A stretch of DNA of 56,684 nucleotides, taken from positions 1-56,684 of the IMG/VR virus record IMGVR_UViG_3300026518_000013. One strand, 5' to 3'. This DNA is from a virus. Under the pieces are notes generated by a model. The model searched no databases, was not told the DNA's origin, and saw only the letters and a program-made list of their open reading frames with translations. Made by a program: the position numbers and the translations under genes. Position 1 is the stretch's first letter. Each line of letters starts with the position of its first letter. Below are positions 1,745-45,036 of this stretch, piece by piece.

Positions 1745-4561
1745 TTAATTTTTATATTTTTTCAATTCATTTTCCAATTCACTTATCCTTTGTTCCAATT
1801 GTTTTATTTTCGCTTCATGTTCCTGTTCACCAGCTATCAGCAGCGGCACAAACGAAACATAATCAATGCTCAAATAATCATCATATAGCGGATGAACAAA
1901 CTCAGGTGCAATTGCCTGTACTTCCTGTGCTATCAAACCATAATTCAATCGGTTATCTTTTGCCGGGTTAAGTTCTTTTGCCAGACCATTCCAGTAATGC
2001 GTTACCGGTCTGAATTGGCCTATAAGTTGATTTGCATTTGTGATAGTTTGAACATTTTCTTTTAGGCGAATATCGGAGGCCGTCCATGCCGTTACTTCAC
2101 CTGTTGCTGTTACATTCCCTGCAAAGTACCCATTTCCATTAACAGCAAGTTTGTTTCCTGATGTTGGGTCGGAGGTGTAACCAAGAAAAGTGTTACCATC
2201 TATTATAGCCCCACCTTCCGTTCTTAATATCCCCGCAGAATTGCGATATAAGAATGTATCAGATGAAGCATTATTATTTGTAACAGAGGAAAATGAAAAC
2301 TTATAATCAGACGGAACCCTTATTTCTTTTACGGCATCCGATATATTTAATCCGATAACTCCTGATTCCCAAAATGAAAAATTTGTATCATTAGCACTAA
2401 AACCAGTGTCCGAATAAGAAGTAAAAGCAATCCCCGGCCCATCAGTAGCTATCACGCTACCATTCGGAAACCGAACTTGAGTAGGAAATGCACCCGCAAT
2501 ATCCAACAAGGCTGCCGGCGTCGTCCCAATCCCTACTTTAACCCCATCCGTATAAACAGGACTATTAACCAGACTTCCAGAAGATTTGTAAGGTAAGTAG
2601 CCTGTTGTTAAGTTTGTTGGGGTTATTGAACCAGTAGTGATTGAAGTAGCCCCCGTAATTGAGCCAGCGAGTGTTAAGTTTTTGGCTGACCAATCGACTG
2701 TTGTGAGATTAGATGTTCCAGAAGTATATATTTCTGTCCAGTCTGACCAACCCTGACAACAATCTCTTAAACTTCTTACATACAAAGGAGTTTTGTTTGT
2801 ATTACTCCAATTTGCAGCAATTTCAAATGCTTTTCCTGAATTATTAACAGATAATGTTATATCATATTTAGTTGGTCTTATAGAATCCGGATTATTATAA
2901 CCCGTATAAATTGCGATTCCTTTATAAATTTTTTGTGTTCTATCTCCACTACTTGTTGGGTCTGATGGTACATACAAAACATCGCTGCCTAAAATAGATA
3001 CTGGTTGGTCAGAAAGACTATTATAACTAACGCCCAAACCATTAACATAAGATTGTGTTACTTTTGCTGCAACCCTCGCATCAGTATAGTACAAATTTGT
3101 TGAACCTTCAGATACCTCATCAGTTGTATAACTTGGTTTTGTTGCAGCCTTAGCCCAAGCATATACATCCGATGCTGGTAATGTAGTAGGATAAGCTGGT
3201 AATCCATAACCACTTGTTGTTGTTGGATGTGCATCATATCCCCACACCTGACCCGTTGCTGTTCCAAAATCCTTGTTGAAAGCAGTGTTTTTCGTGAAAG
3301 CTGGTTCTTTCCCATTCAGTGCTGTTTGTAAGTCTGTCTGGTCTGATAATGTTCCCGTTATATTTCCCCAAATAGCAGCCGTTCCCCCTCCGGCAGTGGT
3401 TACCGACACAACACCATTCGCATCTACTGACAATCCAGAACCAATTTGCATGATACCTGTTGAAGTGGTTGTGGCAATTGGAAGTGCATCTAACAAGCTT
3501 GCCGGCAATCCAGAGCCATCATCAGCCCATGCCTGAATCTCACCGGTAGCGTATAAGTTACCAGTTACTTTTATGTTTCCATTAGCATCAACGGAAATAG
3601 GGCTATTAACAAGACTTCCATTCATGTAAGGTAAGTAGCCCGTTGATAGGTTTGTTGGGGTGATTGAACCTGTTGTAATTGAAGTTGCCCCCGTAATTGT
3701 TCCTGCAAGGGTTAGGTTTTGAGCTGCCCAATCAACAGAGGTGAGATTAGCGTTTCCAGAGTGATAGGCATAATACATTGCCCCGCCTGTCCCGTGTTCA
3801 AATTGTAAAAATAAATTAGGCGACCGACTCGCATCTACTGTCAATACCATCCCAGTACCAGATTGCTTTCTTAGATAATTATCAGAAAAAAATTGAATAC
3901 CCAAAGAATCAACTGAAAAAGTCAAATTACCTGTCATCGTATCCCCCGTAACATTCACAAACCTTGAATCTGCATCTGTTTTTGTGTAAGAATCTGTAAT
4001 ACCGTAACCAGACAATGTAGTATGATGCCAATCACCCCAGCCATAAGCAGTATTCCAATTATCTGAATTATCAGTTATTGACGTTCCCCATCCTGTACCT
4101 GTACTGACAGGAATGCCGGCAGCAGGAAAAACCATACCACCACCAGCCCCCGAGACAAGTGTTACAAGTCCATTTGCATCCACGGCAAAGTTAGATGCAC
4201 TGAATTGTGCAATACCGGTGCTGGTTGTACTTGCAATTGGCAACGCATCTAATAACGAGGCAGGTAAGCCAGTCCCATCATCACTCCATGCCTGAATTTC
4301 TTTTGTTGCGGCAAAATTACCGTCAAAAAGTAGAGTTCCAGCTGTTGGTATTGAGAAACCAAATTGGTCTAATATTTCCAATACATTTTTCTGTATAGTA
4401 TTAACATATAATCTATCTAACAAATTACCTTCAGGTATATTATCAGTTGTATAAGTTTGAGGATTCGTACTAACAACTTGATATACATTAGTAGGGTCAA
4501 AAGCCTTATAATAGTTTACATTACGAAATGATTTTTCTATTGTAACACCTAATGTAGCCAT
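1745..4561 (-). CDS. Tail fibre with C-terminal S74 intramolecular chaperone, 938 aa
   Basis: Long, repetitive, Gly/Ser/Thr-rich fibre. The last 110 residues are a Peptidase_S74 chaperone: SDIRLKENV at about 829-837, then YGLIAQEVQAIAPEFV, and a closing coiled coil (EHEAKIKQLEQRISELENEL). In this family the chaperone trimerises the fibre and cuts itself off at the Ser of the SDxRxK motif. Internal modules recur: IQAW.DDG.GLPASLLDALPIA twice, and ITGATSITTGSITPTNL at least twice. Base composition is visibly more GC-rich than in the replication genes, as expected for a frequently exchanged host-range gene. The ATG lies just past the stop of the tail-tip gene. Confidence 0.88.
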   Translation of the reverse strand: MATLGVTIEKSFRNVNYYKAFDPTNVYQVVSTNPQTYTTDNIPEGNLLDRLYVNTIQKNVLEILDQFGFSIPTAGTLLFDGNFAATKEIQAWSDDGTGLPASLLDALPIASTTSTGIAQFSASNFAVDANGLVTLVSGAGGGMVFPAAGIPVSTGTGWGTSITDNSDNWNTAYGWGDWHHTTLSGYGITDSYTKTDADSRFVNVTGDTMTGNLTFSVDSLGIQFFSDNYLRKQSGTGMVLTVDASRSPNLFLQFEHGTGGAMYYAYHSGNANLTSVDWAAQNLTLAGTITGATSITTGSITPTNLSTGYLPYMNGSLVNSPISVDANGNIKVTGNLYATGEIQAWADDGSGLPASLLDALPIATTTSTGIMQIGSGLSVDANGVVSVTTAGGGTAAIWGNITGTLSDQTDLQTALNGKEPAFTKNTAFNKDFGTATGQVWGYDAHPTTTSGYGLPAYPTTLPASDVYAWAKAATKPSYTTDEVSEGSTNLYYTDARVAAKVTQSYVNGLGVSYNSLSDQPVSILGSDVLYVPSDPTSSGDRTQKIYKGIAIYTGYNNPDSIRPTKYDITLSVNNSGKAFEIAANWSNTNKTPLYVRSLRDCCQGWSDWTEIYTSGTSNLTTVDWSAKNLTLAGSITGATSITTGSITPTNLTTGYLPYKSSGSLVNSPVYTDGVKVGIGTTPAALLDIAGAFPTQVRFPNGSVIATDGPGIAFTSYSDTGFSANDTNFSFWESGVIGLNISDAVKEIRVPSDYKFSFSSVTNNNASSDTFLYRNSAGILRTEGGAIIDGNTFLGYTSDPTSGNKLAVNGNGYFAGNVTATGEVTAWTASDIRLKENVQTITNANQLIGQFRPVTHYWNGLAKELNPAKDNRLNYGLIAQEVQAIAPEFVHPLYDDYLSIDYVSFVPLLIAGEQEHEAKIKQLEQRISELENELKKYKN

Positions 4562-11784: not shown

Positions 11785-12162
11785 CTATACATATACATAC
11801 TTAACAAAAGCATTAGTAGCTTTGAATAATGGCGTTTTTTCAATGTTAATTATCCTGAAAGCATTTTCAACCTGTTTGGGGTCTTGCCAATTACTATTCA
11901 TAGCCTGTAAATCTGCCAATGAACCTAACCACAACCAACCACCTAAATCTAAATCATCCATAACTAAGATTTTGGCTTTACTTGTAACTTGTTCAGCATC
12001 TTTATTAACAACAATCTCCATTTTATCTTCCCAACGACAATTTATTTGTTTAATAATTGAAAATACTTCTCCACCATACCCATCCTTCATACCATCACCC
12101 CAGTAAACTGCAGATTGTACACAAATACTATTCAAAAACTTTAATATACCTGTTGTAGCCAT
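11785..12162 (-). CDS. Head closure / neck protein, 125 aa
   Basis: Lies between the gp6-like connector and the gp10-like protein, the usual place of the head-closure protein. Sequence features: CRWEDKMEIVVNKDAEQVTSKAKILVMDDLDLGGWLWLG, beta-rich and similar in style to closure proteins that stopper the portal. Its start overlaps the connector gene by 35 bases. Assignment rests on position plus general sequence character. Confidence 0.7.
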   Translation of the reverse strand: MATTGILKFLNSICVQSAVYWGDGMKDGYGGEVFSIIKQINCRWEDKMEIVVNKDAEQVTSKAKILVMDDLDLGGWLWLGSLADLQAMNSNWQDPKQVENAFRIINIEKTPLFKATNAFVKYVYV

Positions 12163-12547
12163 AATTCAATCCATAATTAGGTGTTTTTATTGCCTTAGAA
12201 ATCAATCTTTTACCTTCTAATGTTCTCAAAATACCAGTTGTATCAATAACAAGTGCCATTTGTCCGTAAGGAGTTGAATCAAATCCTTTTCCCGATATAC
12301 CCATATAAGTTATTTCAGCACCGCCAGCACCTTCTTTTTGTGCCATCCTTTCCCGTAAAGATGCTAACAAATGAGCAGCAACATATTTTTCAACTTCTTC
12401 TTGAACTGTAATATCAACTGTTACATTAGCTTTAGCATAAGCATTAGTAACCAAAGTAGTAGCTGTATCAATAAAAGATTGAATACTTTTATCACTTGTT
12501 GTAATTGAGGAATCAAACAATAATCTTATATCATCCGGTGTAATCAT
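12128..12547 (-). CDS. Head-tail connector (gp6-like), 139 aa
   Basis: N-terminal ITPDDIRLLFDSS...SFIDTATTLVTNAYA is the helical start of gp6-like adaptors, followed by EEVEKYVAAHLLASLRER. Binds the portal to form the neck. An AAAGGAG lies eight bases before the ATG. It begins right after the sulfotransferase stop, so the modification cassette is embedded in the morphogenesis operon. Confidence 0.82.
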   Translation of the reverse strand: MITPDDIRLLFDSSITTSDKSIQSFIDTATTLVTNAYAKANVTVDITVQEEVEKYVAAHLLASLRERMAQKEGAGGAEITYMGISGKGFDSTPYGQMALVIDTTGILRTLEGKRLISKAIKTPNYGLNYGYNRYIKVFE

Positions 12548-13204
12548 TTACTTTTCTCCTTTCCTGACTAACGGGTCAATAACATTGACAATATCCAAAT
12601 TCCATTTTAATCCTAACCAATTTAACATTTGATTAACTTGAGAATAATCACCTTCAACCATTCTTTCAGGCCAAACTATTTTTATATCTAAACCAGCCTG
12701 AATCATTTCTACCCAATCTTTTTCATACTGATGAACCAACCATAACCACCCTTCAGCTTCATTTTTCAGATTTAATCTTTCCAAATTTTCTTTATTTTTG
12801 AAAAGTTTCATATATCCCGTTTTTATACAGGAATTAATTATATCAGAAGTTTTACGTCTAACAATTACCCATTGAGCACTGGGGTACAATTGATTCCAAA
12901 TTTTCCAAGTAGGTGTTAATAATGAACTTTTTAGAAAAAGTTTTGATTTGTAATGACGTAAAAAACTAAAGTTATTTTCAACATTAATTGGAATAACGTT
13001 CAACTGAGGATACAATGTATTCTTTGAGTATTGACTAATCAAACCATTTAAAATATCATGAATTGCTTTACTTTCCAAAAGATTGTTAACTGGTTCTACC
13101 GTTTTTACCCCTACAATAGAAAAAATTCTTGCAATAAGGGCAACCCCGCTTCTTTCAGCCCCAGTTAATAAAATCGGTGTACTATTTTTTGTTTTTATGT
13201 TCAT
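12548..13204 (-). CDS. Sulfotransferase-like protein, 218 aa
   Basis: Sulfotransferase signatures: the 5'-phosphosulfate loop PILLTGAERSGVALIARIF near residues 10-28, and a 3'-phosphate-binding block WVIVRRKTSDIINSC near 112-126. C-terminal WLWLVHQYEKDWVEMI and GDYSQVNQMLNWLG fit the family. Predicted to move sulfate from PAPS onto a sugar or protein hydroxyl. It overlaps the GT2 gene by four bases and is followed at once by the connector gene, so a virion glycan is a plausible acceptor; that part is inference. Confidence 0.8.
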   Translation of the reverse strand: MNIKTKNSTPILLTGAERSGVALIARIFSIVGVKTVEPVNNLLESKAIHDILNGLISQYSKNTLYPQLNVIPINVENNFSFLRHYKSKLFLKSSLLTPTWKIWNQLYPSAQWVIVRRKTSDIINSCIKTGYMKLFKNKENLERLNLKNEAEGWLWLVHQYEKDWVEMIQAGLDIKIVWPERMVEGDYSQVNQMLNWLGLKWNLDIVNVIDPLVRKGEK

Positions 13205-13920
13205 AATACTTTATTCTGTTCAAAATATCTAAAATCTTGACCAACAATAGTTCTAAAATACTGCAAATTAGAATCAGGCATTCTACAGCCATCTCTATGC
13301 CCAATACCAATACCAGGGCGTCCAGGTAATCCTTTTATCCCAACTGAAAGAGGATGTCCATTAGTATAGAATAACTTTTTACTTGTATTCAACCCTTTCC
13401 ATATATTCATATCAATGAAACCAGTTGATTTTTCAACTAATTTCCTAATTTCTGATAATAATGTTATATCAAAGGCTGTTTGGAAAAGACTTGAATGTTT
13501 TGAATTAACATTCAATCTATACTTTCTTTGAGGTATGTTATAATACACCGTATTTGCCTCGCCAACCATCTTGTATTTTTTTAAATAATCCAGCATCTTT
13601 TCCAAATAAATTGATGAATAATAATCATCATCCTCAACTATGAATACTTTATCAATAACAAACAAACTAATTATGTCAAACGCCAATAACAAGTTTCTTT
13701 TTTGTGTATTCATTCCCGGCTTCCATTCAGGAACCGGATGACGTTTAACCACAATCCAATTCTTACCAAATGGTTCTTCAATAATATTTGAAGTTATTGG
13801 TATACAATCATCCACAATAATCCAAAGAACTTTTCCTCGATATGTTTGATTAAGCATCCATTGTTTGCATAACTTCAATTGTTTTGCTCTTCCACCCGTC
13901 AATGTAATTATCCCTACCAT
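13201..13920 (-). CDS. GT2-type glycosyltransferase, 239 aa
   Basis: GT-A fold glycosyltransferase: start MVGIITLTGGRAKQLKLCKQ, then VLWIIVDDCIP near residue 33, and the metal-binding acidic motif VFIVEDDDYYSSIYLEKML at about 92-110. No membrane segment. Its first 71 bases overlap the end of the upstream gene in another frame, yet its N-terminus is typical of the family, so the overlap is real. Donor and acceptor are unknown. Confidence 0.83.
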   Translation of the reverse strand: MVGIITLTGGRAKQLKLCKQWMLNQTYRGKVLWIIVDDCIPITSNIIEEPFGKNWIVVKRHPVPEWKPGMNTQKRNLLLAFDIISLFVIDKVFIVEDDDYYSSIYLEKMLDYLKKYKMVGEANTVYYNIPQRKYRLNVNSKHSSLFQTAFDITLLSEIRKLVEKSTGFIDMNIWKGLNTSKKLFYTNGHPLSVGIKGLPGRPGIGIGHRDGCRMPDSNLQYFRTIVGQDFRYFEQNKVL

Positions 13921-14626
13921 TTTTCCTTGTACTTAACTCATACATACGCTTAAAATCAATTTTTTCAAACACATTAATATTACTATAAGGATTAACGTTG
14001 TAAACGCTTACATCGCTTAATTTTGCTTCATCAGCAATCTTTTGAAAAGGCTTGATATGGATATTAAAAGGTAACACCCTTCTTGCCACTTGTTCATCAT
14101 GTTCCCTGCGATAAGCATTATGCCAATGTTGATGGTTCTGCTCATCTAAATTCATATCAAAACCTAAAAGAAAAATACGTTTTGCTCCCAAATGAACAGC
14201 TAAATCAATCGCGGCCGCACCAGAACTATTATTCCAACAAATCTTTGCAGGATTTGGTGAAATACCTGTAACATGATTTCTATCTTTATCGATATAAATA
14301 AAGTTATCATCCTTTGCAACAGTTGAACTACAAGTCATCACATAGTTTGGAAATGCTTCCAATTCTTTTCTGTATTTCAAACCAAAAGTCCTGTCGCCGA
14401 AAAACACAATATCAATCCAATTACCAAGTTTAAAAGCAATATTAACACCAATTACATTTTTGTTTCTAAGAAATGACATATATTCCGAAAAAATTGACAT
14501 TGGTTTTTGATAATTCCTTACAGCCAGTACAACCTCCTTTGGAATATCAAAAATTTTATTAATTGATGAACCACCACCAATAATCCAAACATCTTCACCT
14601 TGCCATATTTTCGGGATATATGTCAT
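13850..14626 (-). CDS. DUF115 / MptE-like protein, 258 aa
   Basis: Rossmann-type protein. N-terminal WQGEDVWIIGGGSSINKIFD is a nucleotide-binding Gly motif, and SSGAAAIDLAVHLGAKRIFLLGFDM around 145-170 is the hallmark of the DUF115/MptE-like group, which includes Maf-type sugar transferases acting on flagellin. In a phage capsid operon, beside a GT2 enzyme and a sulfotransferase, transfer or preparation of a sugar is likely. A pterin pyrophosphokinase role, as in MptE, is less likely here but cannot be excluded. Confidence 0.75.
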   Translation of the reverse strand: MTYIPKIWQGEDVWIIGGGSSINKIFDIPKEVVLAVRNYQKPMSIFSEYMSFLRNKNVIGVNIAFKLGNWIDIVFFGDRTFGLKYRKELEAFPNYVMTCSSTVAKDDNFIYIDKDRNHVTGISPNPAKICWNNSSGAAAIDLAVHLGAKRIFLLGFDMNLDEQNHQHWHNAYRREHDEQVARRVLPFNIHIKPFQKIADEAKLSDVSVYNVNPYSNINVFEKIDFKRMYELSTRKNGRDNYIDGWKSKTIEVMQTMDA

Positions 14627-15127: not shown

Positions 15128-16237
15128 TTAAGCCAAATGAACAATTCCAGTTTTTCCACTCTGATCAGAACGAATCTGCGGAACTTGAATGGTAATAACT
15201 TTGAAATGATTAACAAACTTGCCTTCAGTCTGCCATTGAATATTCTGAATAGGTAAACCACGTACCAAACGAACCACATCACTGGTCATCTGAACAAGTA
15301 ACACATTGTTTGCCGGCAAAGTATCAATAACTTTGATTCCTTTGATTCCAGAAATCTTTAAAATCCTTTCACGAATGGTCATGTTATTTGCCCCGGTTAC
15401 TGAATAATCTTCATCAATAATAGTTTCATATGCAGTAGGGATATATAACATCCAAGGACCATAATGCCAAGCATCAATACTTTTTTGTTTCATTTTCCGC
15501 ACATCTTCTACAATCTGTGCCGGCGTTTTACCTGACTCATCCCAAGCAACAGTCAATGGTACAGGTAATCTATCAGGATAATTAATATATGAAAAAATAG
15601 TATTTCTTCCTTTACTATCTTTTGCACCAAAGGAATACTTAGTATCAGTGAATAGCATTTGTTCAAGTTTTACCAAAACTTTACGTCCTGCCCTTTCCAC
15701 CATTGTAGTATCCAAAGGATTACCAAGTGCCCGACTGGCAGCCAAAACCCTTGCATTGATTTCATAATCTGCATGAATTATTGGAATTGGCAAATAATTG
15801 TGTGTATAAACCACCCGGTCATTTTTACCACGTGAAATACCATCCATGGTCAACTCGGCTTCCAAGGCATCACTAACATCATGCCATTCCAATACAGTGG
15901 TTCCCATTGCATTTCCAAGGTTATACACCAAACCATTTGCCACCAAATCAGCAACACCACCCAAACGGATTGTTGAAATTTGCTGCAAAGCCCGGTCTAA
16001 AGCAACCCATTCAAACCTTTCCAAAGTTGCCCCACCATCATGTACAATCAACTTGTAATGTTTTGGATTACTGGGGTCAGTACCTGTGAAAACAGAAATA
16101 TAAGATTTCCCTGTTTTCGGGTCATAGAAAGGACGCATCCTTTCAGGAGCAAGTTGTCCATTTGCAGAAAGCATTTGAGCCACTTCCCCATTTACACCAT
16201 TTCTTGTTATAACATCAACATTTACATTATGTTCCAT
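15128..16237 (-). CDS. Major capsid protein, 369 aa
   Basis: HK97-fold, encapsulin-like capsid protein (resembling the DUF6260/linocin group): N-arm up to about 70, then LERFEWVALDRALQQIS, ISRGKNDRVVYTHNYLPIPIIHADYEINARVLAASRALG, VERAGRKVLVKLEQMLF and a beta-rich C-terminus. It follows the protease/scaffold and decoration genes, the standard order, and is followed by a terminator. The start has AAAGGAG seven bases before the ATG, one of the strongest ribosome-binding sites in the window. Confidence 0.92.
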   Translation of the reverse strand: MEHNVNVDVITRNGVNGEVAQMLSANGQLAPERMRPFYDPKTGKSYISVFTGTDPSNPKHYKLIVHDGGATLERFEWVALDRALQQISTIRLGGVADLVANGLVYNLGNAMGTTVLEWHDVSDALEAELTMDGISRGKNDRVVYTHNYLPIPIIHADYEINARVLAASRALGNPLDTTMVERAGRKVLVKLEQMLFTDTKYSFGAKDSKGRNTIFSYINYPDRLPVPLTVAWDESGKTPAQIVEDVRKMKQKSIDAWHYGPWMLYIPTAYETIIDEDYSVTGANNMTIRERILKISGIKGIKVIDTLPANNVLLVQMTSDVVRLVRGLPIQNIQWQTEGKFVNHFKVITIQVPQIRSDQSGKTGIVHLA

Positions 16238-16258: not shown

Positions 16259-16684
16259 TTAGATTACGCGAATTTGAATACGTCCTGAATTAGATTCACC
16301 GGAAAGGTCAACATTTTCCATTGCCTGTCCAATAATCCAACCACCTGCACTTGCATTATATTTTTTCAAAGTACCATCTCCGGCACTAACCAAAAAATCA
16401 CCAACAACAACATTTTCACCTGATGCTAAAAATGCGTATACCATATCACCACGTGTAGGTAACCAAACTTGGGCAACATCATCAACAACATATTGGTCAT
16501 CAATGCCACCTCCCTGTAACTCATCTTCCAAGGCAAACATTAAACCTGCAGGACCACCTTCTACTGTATGCGGTTTAAGCTTGGCATTGGAATCAAATTC
16601 CAATAACATACCCGGTATAAAAGCAGTCCCTACCGTATGTTCTTCTTGTACACTCAAATAATCTTTAATTTTTACTGTATTCAT
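16259..16684 (-). CDS. Capsid decoration / cement protein, 141 aa
   Basis: Compact beta-rich protein with the DUF2190/decoration-like pattern: HTVGTAFIPGMLLEFDSNAKLKPHT, then GENVVVGDFLVSAGDGTLKKYNA and IGQAMENVDLSG. Family members bind the capsid surface after expansion. It lies directly upstream of the major capsid gene. GGAAGG precedes the ATG. Confidence 0.8.
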   Translation of the reverse strand: MNTVKIKDYLSVQEEHTVGTAFIPGMLLEFDSNAKLKPHTVEGGPAGLMFALEDELQGGGIDDQYVVDDVAQVWLPTRGDMVYAFLASGENVVVGDFLVSAGDGTLKKYNASAGGWIIGQAMENVDLSGESNSGRIQIRVI

Positions 16685-42048: not shown

Positions 42049-42603
42049 TTACTTGTTTATTAAACGCATCAATTCCTGCCGTGCTGCAAGGTCAGAACGA
42101 AAAACACCTTGCATAGATGAAGTAACCATTGTTGAATTTTGTTTTTGAACCCCACGCATTCGCATACACATATGTTGTGCTTCAATAATACAAGCTGCAC
42201 CTTTTGGTTGCAAAAACTGCATCAAAGCAGTTGTAACTTGGTCACCAATACGTTCCTGTATTTGAAGACGTCGAGAATAAATTTCAACCAATCGAGCAAG
42301 CTTGGAAATACCAATAACCCGTTTATTAGGAATATAAGCAACATGAGCTTTACCTACAAAAGGTAACATATGATGTTCACACATTGAATACAATTCAATG
42401 TCTTTCAAAAGAACAATTTGGTCATACCCATCTGCAGCAAAAGTAGTCAGAATATCTTCCGGTTTTTTATTATATCCTGAAAATATTTCATCAAACATTT
42501 TAACAACCCGATGTGGTGTTTTTAATAAACCTTCCCGGTCAGAATTTTCCCCAATAATTTGCAATAATTGTTTAATAACTACTTCTTTTTCTTCTTTTTT
42601 CAT
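42049..42603 (-). CDS. folE: GTP cyclohydrolase I, 184 aa
   Basis: Complete FolE: zinc and active-site block [22 protein letters not shown] (about 73-94), [20 protein letters not shown] and [25 protein letters not shown]. Makes dihydroneopterin triphosphate from GTP, the first step toward preQ0. The size is normal and all key residues are present. Confidence 0.94.
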
Positions 42604-42609
42604 AACTAA

Positions 42610-43287
42610 TTAATTTTCATATTCAATTGGGTCTTTTAAACCATTTAATTCAAATGCTTCCAAACGCTCCACACAACTACCACACTTACCACAAGCAATA
42701 GCTTGGTCTTTATAGCAAGTCCGGGTGTATTCATAAGGAACTTGTAATGAATGTCCAATAGCTACCAAATCTGCTTTACTTTTTTGCAAAAAAGGAGCAC
42801 GTAACATAATTTTTTGGTCTGTAGAATACCAAATTGCTTGTTGTGCAGCATTAATAAATTCCGGACGACAATCTGGATAAATATGATGATCACCAGAATG
42901 TACCCCTATATAAATGTCATAAGCACCAATAGATTCCGCAATAGAAGCCATAATAGAAATAAAAAGCATATTACGCCCCGGAACTACTGTTTTTTTCATA
43001 ATTTCTGCTTCATAATGACCCTCCGGAATTTCCCCTCCTGAAAGTAATAAATCAGAAGAAACATGTTGAAAAATATTCTGCAAATCAATTTTATGTAATA
43101 CCAATTTATGATTTTGAGAGTAATATTTCACTAACTTAGTAATAGCAATTTGTTCATACTTATTTTGTTTGCTACCATAAAAAAAATTACATATATGTAA
43201 TTCAATTGATGGCACGTCGTTTAAAATACGTGCCATCAAAGTAGCGGAATCCAATCCACCGGATAAAGAAATAACAGCTTTTTTCAT
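42610..43287 (-). CDS. queC: preQ0 synthase (7-cyano-7-deazaguanine synthase), 225 aa
   Basis: ATP-pyrophosphatase loop SLSGGLDSATLMA (8-20), IKKTVVPGRNMLFISIMAS-type core, SGDHHIYPDCRPEF, and a C-terminal zinc site with Cys191, Cys199, Cys202 and Cys205. Standard QueC length, with no fused amidotransferase domain as in archaeosine-making phage variants. Converts carboxy-deazaguanine to preQ0. It forms the direct supplier for DpdA. Confidence 0.93.
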   Translation of the reverse strand: MKKAVISLSGGLDSATLMARILNDVPSIELHICNFFYGSKQNKYEQIAITKLVKYYSQNHKLVLHKIDLQNIFQHVSSDLLLSGGEIPEGHYEAEIMKKTVVPGRNMLFISIMASIAESIGAYDIYIGVHSGDHHIYPDCRPEFINAAQQAIWYSTDQKIMLRAPFLQKSKADLVAIGHSLQVPYEYTRTCYKDQAIACGKCGSCVERLEAFELNGLKDPIEYEN

Positions 43288-43289
43288 AA

Positions 43290-43802
43290 TTAAGCTTTTA
43301 CAAATTTACCATTTTCCAATTTTTTGACTTCAAATTTTTCCTTTGAAATCCGACCCGGTACTTGTACATTCACAGTTTTACGCATTGATTCCGGGTCACG
43401 TTCCGGAAAATTTTTCACCAACAAAGCATGAATCTCATCTTTGGAAATGCCTTCTTCATCAGCATCTTCAATTGCCTTAACAATAGTAGCAATAACTCCT
43501 ACTTTTTTAACCAATTTTTCCTTTTTAACCGATTTTTCTTTCTTAGCCGATTTTTGTGCAGTAGCAATCTTTTCCTTTTTAGCCGGTGTCTCTTCTACTT
43601 CAACTTTTTCAGCAATTTCATACCAACCTTTTTCAGTCAAATAAGCAATAGTTGCATCAGACAAATTATCTTCCGGAACAATCATTTCAGCAGCTTCCTG
43701 AATTTTAGCTTCCACTTCTTTTTGAGGTGCTTTAATATCAATTGCCGGTTCAATTCCTAATACCTGATTTAGCTCTTTAGCTACTTCTTGATACTTTTTC
43801 AT
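43290..43802 (-). CDS. Lys/Glu-rich protein inside the Que cluster, 170 aa
   Basis: N-terminal helical part, a central linker with repeated Lys-Lys-Glu-Lys blocks (about 75-100), and a C-terminal domain GVIATIVKAIEDADEEGISKDEIHALLVKNFPERDPESMRKTV that looks like a winged helix. Placed between queC and queE, it may bind DNA or link modification to replication. A 104-base AT-rich gap with a TGTATAAT lies upstream, so it may start its own transcript. Confidence 0.7.
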   Translation of the reverse strand: MKKYQEVAKELNQVLGIEPAIDIKAPQKEVEAKIQEAAEMIVPEDNLSDATIAYLTEKGWYEIAEKVEVEETPAKKEKIATAQKSAKKEKSVKKEKLVKKVGVIATIVKAIEDADEEGISKDEIHALLVKNFPERDPESMRKTVNVQVPGRISKEKFEVKKLENGKFVKA

Positions 43803-43906
43803 TTGTTTAAAATTTTAAAAAATTAATAAATACTTTTTTGATTAAATCGCTTAATCTTTGATATATTATACATAAAAAAATGATTTACGTTAACAAAAAA
43901 TTAACA

Positions 43907-44677
43907 TTATACCGATTTTTTATTATTCCACAAAACAACCTGTAATCGGTCTGTATACTTAAAACCAAAACGAATAGCTAATCTAACTACTTTCTCCCGA
44001 ACATTTCTTAATTCTTCCCGCGTAGCACCCTCAGGCATTAACCAAACATTTTTTCTCGAAATTATTCCAGTTTCAATGTATCGAACCTGAATACCCATAA
44101 CATCATCCAAATTACGTACAACAAACTTAAAAATAGAATTTGATAAATCATTCATATGAGACAAAACATCCTCCTTACAAATAGAAAGAAATGAATTACC
44201 AGAATTGATTAACTTTGGACTATTATTCCAAGCATCCACTAATAATTCTAACTCTTTTTCAGGCATCAATACAGCTTCATTTTCAACTTCAATAAAAGGT
44301 AAAAATAAAAGTTTTGCTTCTAACACACGTAAAAATTTAATTAAATTTTTTTGTTGTAACAAAGGACTACCACCAGTAATAACAAAATGAACACCATCTC
44401 GAAATAATTCAAAAATTTTAGTTTTTGACATTATATCAACTAATTCATCAACCCCAATAAAAAATCCATTTTTCCATATATCCTTTGTATCACACCAAGT
44501 ACAATTCAAAGTACAACCAGCCAATCTTAAAAAAACAGCCGGATAACCGGCATACGGTCCTTCACCCTGAATTGTATCATAGAATAACTCTGAAACATTC
44601 AATTTTGGACCAACTATTTTTTGATTACGAGCAATTATACGCTCATACTCATTGGCATTAAAAACAACCTTACTCAT
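43907..44677 (-). CDS. queE: 7-carboxy-7-deazaguanine synthase, radical SAM, 256 aa
   Basis: VSELFYDTIQGEGPYAGYPAVFLRLAGCTLNCTWCDT carries the QueE signature with Fe-S cysteines Cys55, Cys59 and Cys62, and HFVITGGSPLLQQKNL is the SAM-binding GGxP strand. Makes the deazapurine ring. Overlaps queD by four bases. Confidence 0.92.
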   Translation of the reverse strand: MSKVVFNANEYERIIARNQKIVGPKLNVSELFYDTIQGEGPYAGYPAVFLRLAGCTLNCTWCDTKDIWKNGFFIGVDELVDIMSKTKIFELFRDGVHFVITGGSPLLQQKNLIKFLRVLEAKLLFLPFIEVENEAVLMPEKELELLVDAWNNSPKLINSGNSFLSICKEDVLSHMNDLSNSIFKFVVRNLDDVMGIQVRYIETGIISRKNVWLMPEGATREELRNVREKVVRLAIRFGFKYTDRLQVVLWNNKKSV

Positions 44678-45036
44678 AATTCAAAGTATTTTGCACTGGT
44701 TTTAGGTGTTTCCTTGACTTCAATAGAATAAAGTTCCGGATACTTATCACGCCAAACATCAAAAATAAATTTCGCAATATTCTCAGCACTGGGATTCATA
44801 CCTATCGGTAAACGCTCATTTAAGTACCTATGGTCAAACAGGTCATCCAACCATTGTTTAAATTCAGACAAATCTCTATAATCTCGAATAAATCCAGCTT
44901 CATTCAAATTTTCACCACGTAATGTAATTGTAACATGATAATCATGTCCATGTAAACGCGTACAAGGATGAGTACTCGGCAAATGTTCTAACGAATGGGC
45001 AGCCGAAAACATAAATTGCTTTGAAATTTCATACAT
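44674..45036 (-). CDS. queD: 6-carboxytetrahydropterin synthase, 120 aa
   Basis: Short QueD: zinc ligands His14, His29 and His31 in AAHSL and LHGHDYH, catalytic Cys25 in HPCTRLHG, and FDHRYLNE. Second step after FolE. Its end overlaps queE. A full FolE-QueD-QueE-QueC route is thus present in the window. Confidence 0.92.
   Translation of the reverse strand: MYEISKQFMFSAAHSLEHLPSTHPCTRLHGHDYHVTITLRGENLNEAGFIRDYRDLSEFKQWLDDLFDHRYLNERLPIGMNPSAENIAKFIFDVWRDKYPELYSIEVKETPKTSAKYFEL

Follow-up and report, generated by a model that had tools for sequence, protein, structure and literature searches.

The interval between the major capsid gene and the DUF4054 gene of this virus record holds a small form of a conserved yet variable gene island. 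It consists of a Maf/GT42-like glycosyltransferase, a GT2-like glycosyltransferase and a sulfotransferase, preceded by a small protein that we term dec139 (Table 1). A conserved variable island with a dedicated small protein is a stronger finding than the three enzymes alone, and on balance we believe that the island serves to attach a glycan, usually a sulfated one, to a virion protein.

The window analyzed here is the whole 56.7-kb virus record; no end repeats were found, and a DNA megablast in phages gave no match. The late operon is siphophage-like, with genes for terminase, portal, protease, decoration and capsid proteins, tail terminator and a lambda-like tail tube. The gene at 1745-4561 (minus strand) encodes a tail protein whose C terminus carries a Peptidase_S74 chaperone domain. 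A sequence-only reading of this DNA had described three enzyme genes with overlapping frames between the major capsid and connector genes, and this arrangement was borne out. The three ORFs are intact and the run from the capsid gene to the DUF4054 gene is tightly packed: the Maf-like (DUF115) and GT2 ORFs overlap by 71 nt, the GT2 and sulfotransferase ORFs by 4 nt, and the DUF4054 gene begins at the base directly after the sulfotransferase end. Since homologs with 30-49% identity are found at the same position in dozens of viral contigs, the trio does not represent chance ORFs. Signals for promoters and terminators in the region were no higher than in shuffled sequence.

Table 1. Genes of the island in the window and the genes that flank it.
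Feature	Position	Strand	Basis or role
DUF4054 connector-region protein	12128-12547	-	Pfam 1.8e-7; downstream border of the slot
Sulfotransferase, Sulfotransfer_3 family, final island gene	12548-13204	-	Pfam match in 25/25 relatives; 218 aa
GT2-like (GT-A) glycosyltransferase, middle gene	13201-13920	-	Glycos_transf_2 in 8/11 relatives; 239 aa
Maf/GT42-like glycosyltransferase, first island enzyme	13850-14626	-	Fold and PHROG_4603; 258 aa
Two-domain small protein dec139, 139 aa	14647-15066	-	Candidate acceptor of the glycan, or adaptor for the enzymes
Major capsid protein, DUF6260 / phrog_771	15128-16237	-	Upstream border of the slot
Head decoration-like protein	16259-16684	-	phrog_766

A search with the capsid protein yielded 67 related loci. 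We counted the 60 loci that contain the entire interval downstream of the capsid gene, ending at DUF4054 or, failing that, at the connector gene after it; this set had passed a crude duplicate filter and retains a few near-copies (e.g. L063/L066 and L097/L102). The length of the slot ranges from approximately 0 to 7.5 kb, the shortest being 4 bp. Enzymes occupy 52 of the 60 slots: a Maf-like gene is present in 49 and a sulfotransferase in 47, and the two occur together in 44. Six sites (L063, L066, L068, L071, L077 and L084) are empty. The typical order is capsid, dec139, Maf-like gene, variable genes, sulfotransferase and DUF4054, and all 580 island ORFs are on one strand. Among loci selected by their enzyme (80 of 257 sulfotransferase relatives), the sulfotransferase is directly before DUF4054 in 71 of 80 and one gene away in four more. 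The capsid tree is poorly resolved and did not separate gain from loss of the island; that its empty sites fall in just a few branches counts against the interpretation preferred here. Nine capsid relatives were located in genome contigs, all of them metagenome bins of mixed phyla (Bacillota, Bacteroidota, Balneolales and Marinimicrobia) that are not trustworthy as hosts.

The enzyme classes given in the sequence-only reading (DUF115/MptE-like, GT2, sulfotransferase) proved correct at the family level, by Pfam and PHROG matches among relatives. As modeled by AlphaFold (pLDDT 90), the first island enzyme has the fold of a Maf/GT42-type catalytic domain. Its closest fold match is the flagellin glycosyltransferase Maf (5mu5; Z 15.1, 211 residues aligned, Maf residues 262-533), followed by CstII (Z 11.3), CstI (approximately 11) and archaeal MptE (10.4); matches beyond the sialyltransferase/pyrophosphokinase-like group have Z below 5. 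PHROG_4603, labeled sialyltransferase, matches the gene at 1.6e-28. The window copy alone falls below threshold for the MptE/DUF115 Pfam model, which matches 34 of 41 relatives, and it deviates at the near-invariant positions Y3, N57 and I110. At least 491 relatives of this enzyme were identified, and the loci of 80 were fetched. The window GT2 ORF alone has no Pfam match, but most of its relatives match Glycos_transf_2 (Table 1); the family has an invariant EDDD motif, as in a GT-A family with DxD, and its profile matches GT2 enzymes among solved structures (E 3e-4 to 3e-3).

The last island gene is a sulfotransferase at the family level, and its activity is predicted to be PAPS-dependent. 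All aligned relatives match Sulfotransfer_3 (PF13469; best E 1.6e-10), and the window protein by itself reaches 22.1 bits, short of the 27 required. An RSG P-loop and an RRxTxDI..SC motif are invariant in the family, including R116, R117, D121 and S125 (n=25). The window P-loop, RSGVA, is degenerate, which weighs against the sulfation proposed below: it lacks both hydroxyl residues at its end, whereas each of these two positions is Ser or Thr in 21 of 25 sequences. A viral scan with the single sequence found no relatives; an alignment-based search found 257. A tblastn search of 50,697 phage records with the sulfotransferase gave no match, and no cultured member was found. The function of phage sulfotransferases has been called unclear (PMC10580990). 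Seven islands (L022, L024, L123, L142, L152, L153 and L233) carry two sulfotransferases each, of approximately 213-220 and 232-264 aa, and one sulfotransferase (L056:12983-13680) is interrupted by in-frame stops and scores as two pieces.

The middle of the island is where relatives differ. We scanned 130 variable ORFs and identified matches to GT2, GT11, GT7C-like and other transferases, GDP-mannose-dehydratase-like and RmlD-like proteins, and methyltransferases. In 23 long records, many of which were fetched via an enzyme, a sulfotransferase was present in 22 and GDP-mannose-dehydratase-like genes in 10. Transmembrane prediction gave fewer than two segments for every one of 199 variable island ORFs, while the E. 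coli controls Wzx and Wzy gave 9 and 6. This absence of multi-pass membrane ORFs favors cytoplasmic modification of a soluble acceptor, and argues against an exported host surface polymer. APS-kinase-like genes lie inside the islands of 2 of the 23 long records (L251:11595-12089 and L252:6236-6703), one of them directly preceding the sulfotransferase; they are divergent, at 64-68 bits against the curated equivalog cut-off of 138.7, and no ATP sulfurylase was found in the 23 records. These genes give indirect support to the predicted PAPS-dependent sulfation. Other occupants of the slot include homing-endonuclease-like ORFs (GIY-YIG by eye) directly 3' of the capsid gene (L251:2054-2890 and L039:9148-9936), a further homing-endonuclease-like ORF in L052, and a 145-aa ORF between dec139 and the Maf-like gene that by eye is similar to S-adenosylmethionine decarboxylase (L251:3243-3680 and L074:9687-10124).

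The sequence-only reading had missed both this variability, of which the trio is one version, and the fourth linked gene, dec139. The small protein is present in 52 of 52 enzyme-bearing slots compared with 2 of 8 enzyme-free slots (Fisher 6e-7, kinship ignored). It is absent from all six truly empty sites and, in the case of L071, from the entire 59-kb record; the two enzyme-free loci that retain it are L082, with a 63-aa form comprising the N-terminal domain only, and L083, with a full-length copy on a 3.8-kb fragment. In 77 of 78 enzyme-selected loci, a sample of a larger listing, dec139 is directly upstream of the Maf-like gene. Among 117 non-redundant pairs of the two genes, the overlap is 4 nt in 52 and 1 nt in 26 (78 in total). 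Several islands contain tandem copies, and in L134 (6692-8809) the N-terminal domain is fused to an approximately 640-aa homolog of gp11 of Pseudomonas phage PAJU2 (29% over 284 residues, 5e-25). Minimal loci pair dec139 with one enzyme: the Maf-like protein in L147, the sulfotransferase in L079, and a Maf-like/GT2 fusion in L047. Together, the co-occurrence and these minimal loci favor dec139 as acceptor or adaptor. It is probably the best candidate for either role, with the capsid protein second as acceptor, and the "capsid, decoration or tail" acceptor of the sequence-only reading is thereby narrowed, from linkage, to one decoration-protein candidate.

AlphaFold predicts two confident domains in dec139, joined by a low-confidence, flexible linker. 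A fold search gave no confident match (best E 0.025 in BFVD, best Z 5.5 in PDB), and no usable Pfam or PHROG family was found. Alignment identified no fully conserved Ser or Thr (the best position, S23, is S/T in 76%) and no strictly conserved tyrosine (Y87 is Y in 80% and F in 18%). A generally Ser/Thr-rich acceptor was considered and rejected: S/T content is mostly 4-14%, and the SSTSST run of the window copy is not conserved. A relationship of dec139 to gene 89 of Thermus phage P74-26, or to the small post-capsid genes of MaInes and Hardycor1, was likewise rejected, with profile scores of 0.8-1.6 bits.

We propose that the Maf/GT42-like enzyme would add the first sugar to a head protein in the cytoplasm, with dec139 the favored acceptor, and that the GT2-like enzyme would lengthen the glycan in the window phage. 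In larger islands, other transferases, sugar dehydratases or epimerases and methyltransferases would take the glycan-building role. The sulfotransferase would then move sulfate from host PAPS, most likely onto the glycan, and phage heads would end up bearing a charged glycan that varies among relatives. The fixed location and order, the lack of membrane transport genes and the co-occurrence with dec139 point to a cytoplasmic glycan for a virion protein, and the APS-kinase-like genes of two islands suggest that the glycan is linked to sulfation. For the island product we infer donor sugars, an acceptor, sulfation, assembly into virions and a benefit, which may lie in masking, adhesion or stability.

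Glycosyltransferases for serotype conversion are frequent in phages (PMC12619734), and the islands, with their dehydratases and methyltransferases, resemble small O-antigen clusters. The glycan might thus be meant for the host surface rather than the virion, converting LPS, capsule or teichoic acid during lysogeny or infection. We consider this unlikely, as virtually every relative has the island within its late head operon, in strict linkage to a head-operon protein, dec139, and as a scan by a method that detects Wzx and Wzy revealed no flippase, polymerase or other multi-pass protein among the 199 island ORFs. The sulfotransferase could instead sulfate tyrosines of a virion protein directly, the glycosyltransferases having a separate job. 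Tyrosylprotein sulfotransferases are the sole solved-structure matches of its profile up to E 0.1. The L079 locus, which has a sulfotransferase and no other island enzyme beside dec139, fits direct protein sulfation and counts against sulfation of a glycan; a search of its MAG found no Maf-like gene. However, the structure matches are weak (best E 0.002), 46 of the 47 slots with a sulfotransferase hold at least one additional island gene, and dec139 offers no invariant tyrosine, leaving only a small chance for this alternative.

Sugar and sulfate might also be destined for hypermodified phage DNA bases, since phage systems for glycosylating and sulfating bases have been put forward, as cited in PMC10829341, and the window phage has a QueC-type 7-deazaguanine pathway (42049-45036, minus strand; QueC at 42646-43281). 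In the window, approximately 28 kb separate QueC from the island; QueC occurs in 10 of 24 records, and a thymidylate synthase/hydroxymethylase-type gene (PF00303) in 1 of 23. The island genes are grouped with head genes, not replication genes, and the predicted Maf/GT42 fold of the first enzyme also argues against a DNA substrate. A role of the island in base modification is therefore very improbable, and the QueC-type pathway is probably a separate DNA modification. The unannotated ORFs, scanned as one set, also include a GTP cyclohydrolase I, a 6-pyruvoyl-tetrahydropterin synthase and a radical SAM protein. Alternatively, the slot might be an insertion hot spot in which the enzymes travel as passengers, or they might act on host small molecules; in neither case would they serve the virion. 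Gene content of the slot is hypervariable and includes homing-endonuclease-like ORFs in L039 and L052, and the Maf-like homologs pmgO and pmgP of phage P1 are dispensable (PMC10695390). Yet fixed first and last enzymes, conserved motifs, a constant strand, start/stop overlaps and co-occurrence with dec139 would not be expected of random cargo, and we give this possibility little credence. The modification of a virion protein is the reading that we prefer.

Virion glycosylation is already known in phages. In mycobacteriophages Che8, Corndog and Myrna, glycosyltransferases that the phage encodes add sugars to proteins of the capsid and the tail tube (Freeman 2023, as summarized in PMC12363180 and PMC12619734). 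Phage-encoded transferases are the point of likeness, the island genes being located in the head operon of virus records; the mycobacteriophage glycans, as these summaries describe them, have been demonstrated experimentally, whereas the island is known from its genes. Neither summary speaks of a sulfotransferase, a Maf-like starter, an island or a small partner protein dedicated to the system. Maf enzymes O-glycosylate Ser/Thr of flagellin (PMC11339370), and the likeness to them is in the fold of the first island enzyme and in the cytoplasmic O-glycosylation of a protein that later builds a large assembly, which is similar to our proposal. Maf proper is a 632-aa protein with flanking domains, compared with the catalytic-domain size of the window enzyme, and it uses flagellin and CMP-nonulosonate donors, neither of which is indicated for the phage island. 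A CMP-sugar synthetase (PF02348) was found in 1 of 23 long records and was absent from the other 22, so a Maf-type donor would need to be supplied by the host.

Homologs of the first enzyme also occur in cultured phages. In P7, the Maf-like profile finds hdmB (1.1e-21) and hdmC (2.8e-6), whose neighbors in the morphogenesis operon include an annotated glycosyltransferase; they belong to the P1/P7 head-morphogenesis set of pmgO and pmgP or hdmB, hdmC and hdmD. The hdm genes tested include no sulfotransferase and no dec139 relative, and in the stretch viewed the capsid gene is not adjacent. In PAJU2, gp10-gp12 comprise a Maf-like gene (1.2e-27), gp11, which is homologous to part of the L134 fusion protein, and a methyltransferase, between head closure and tail terminator genes; this position differs from that of the island, and the stretch viewed contains no sulfotransferase. 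Homologs of the first enzyme thus already occupy head or connector regions of cultured phages, and the cassette is not peculiar to the window phage: the relatives' loci place it in a large variable-island family. The virion-protein glycan linked to sulfation that the sequence-only reading suggested gained comparative support. Bacterial O-antigen and capsule clusters combine glycosyltransferases with sugar dehydratases, epimerases and methyltransferases much as the islands do, but the islands have no flippase- or polymerase-like membrane protein. By transmembrane prediction, no island ORF resembles the membrane flippase or membrane glycosyltransferase of Gtr-type serotype-conversion cassettes (0 of 199). 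A full-text literature search, which covered few subscription journals, found no description of a phage head operon carrying a glycan island with a sulfotransferase at its end; such an exchangeable island appears to be undescribed.

A broader picture is more tentative. These phages may represent a widespread tailed-phage lineage with a swappable module, comprising a head acceptor or adaptor, a Maf-like starter, a variable middle and usually a terminal sulfotransferase, such that virions differ in their sulfated glycans. The fixed site, the fixed first enzyme and the adjacent candidate substrate make the question open to direct testing in vitro. If true, these would be the first sulfated phage virions and a phage counterpart of bacterial O-antigen variation, with variable, negatively charged sugar coats made on particles without host polysaccharide machinery. 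This would bear on phage persistence, adsorption and recognition, and on the decoration of HK97-fold heads.
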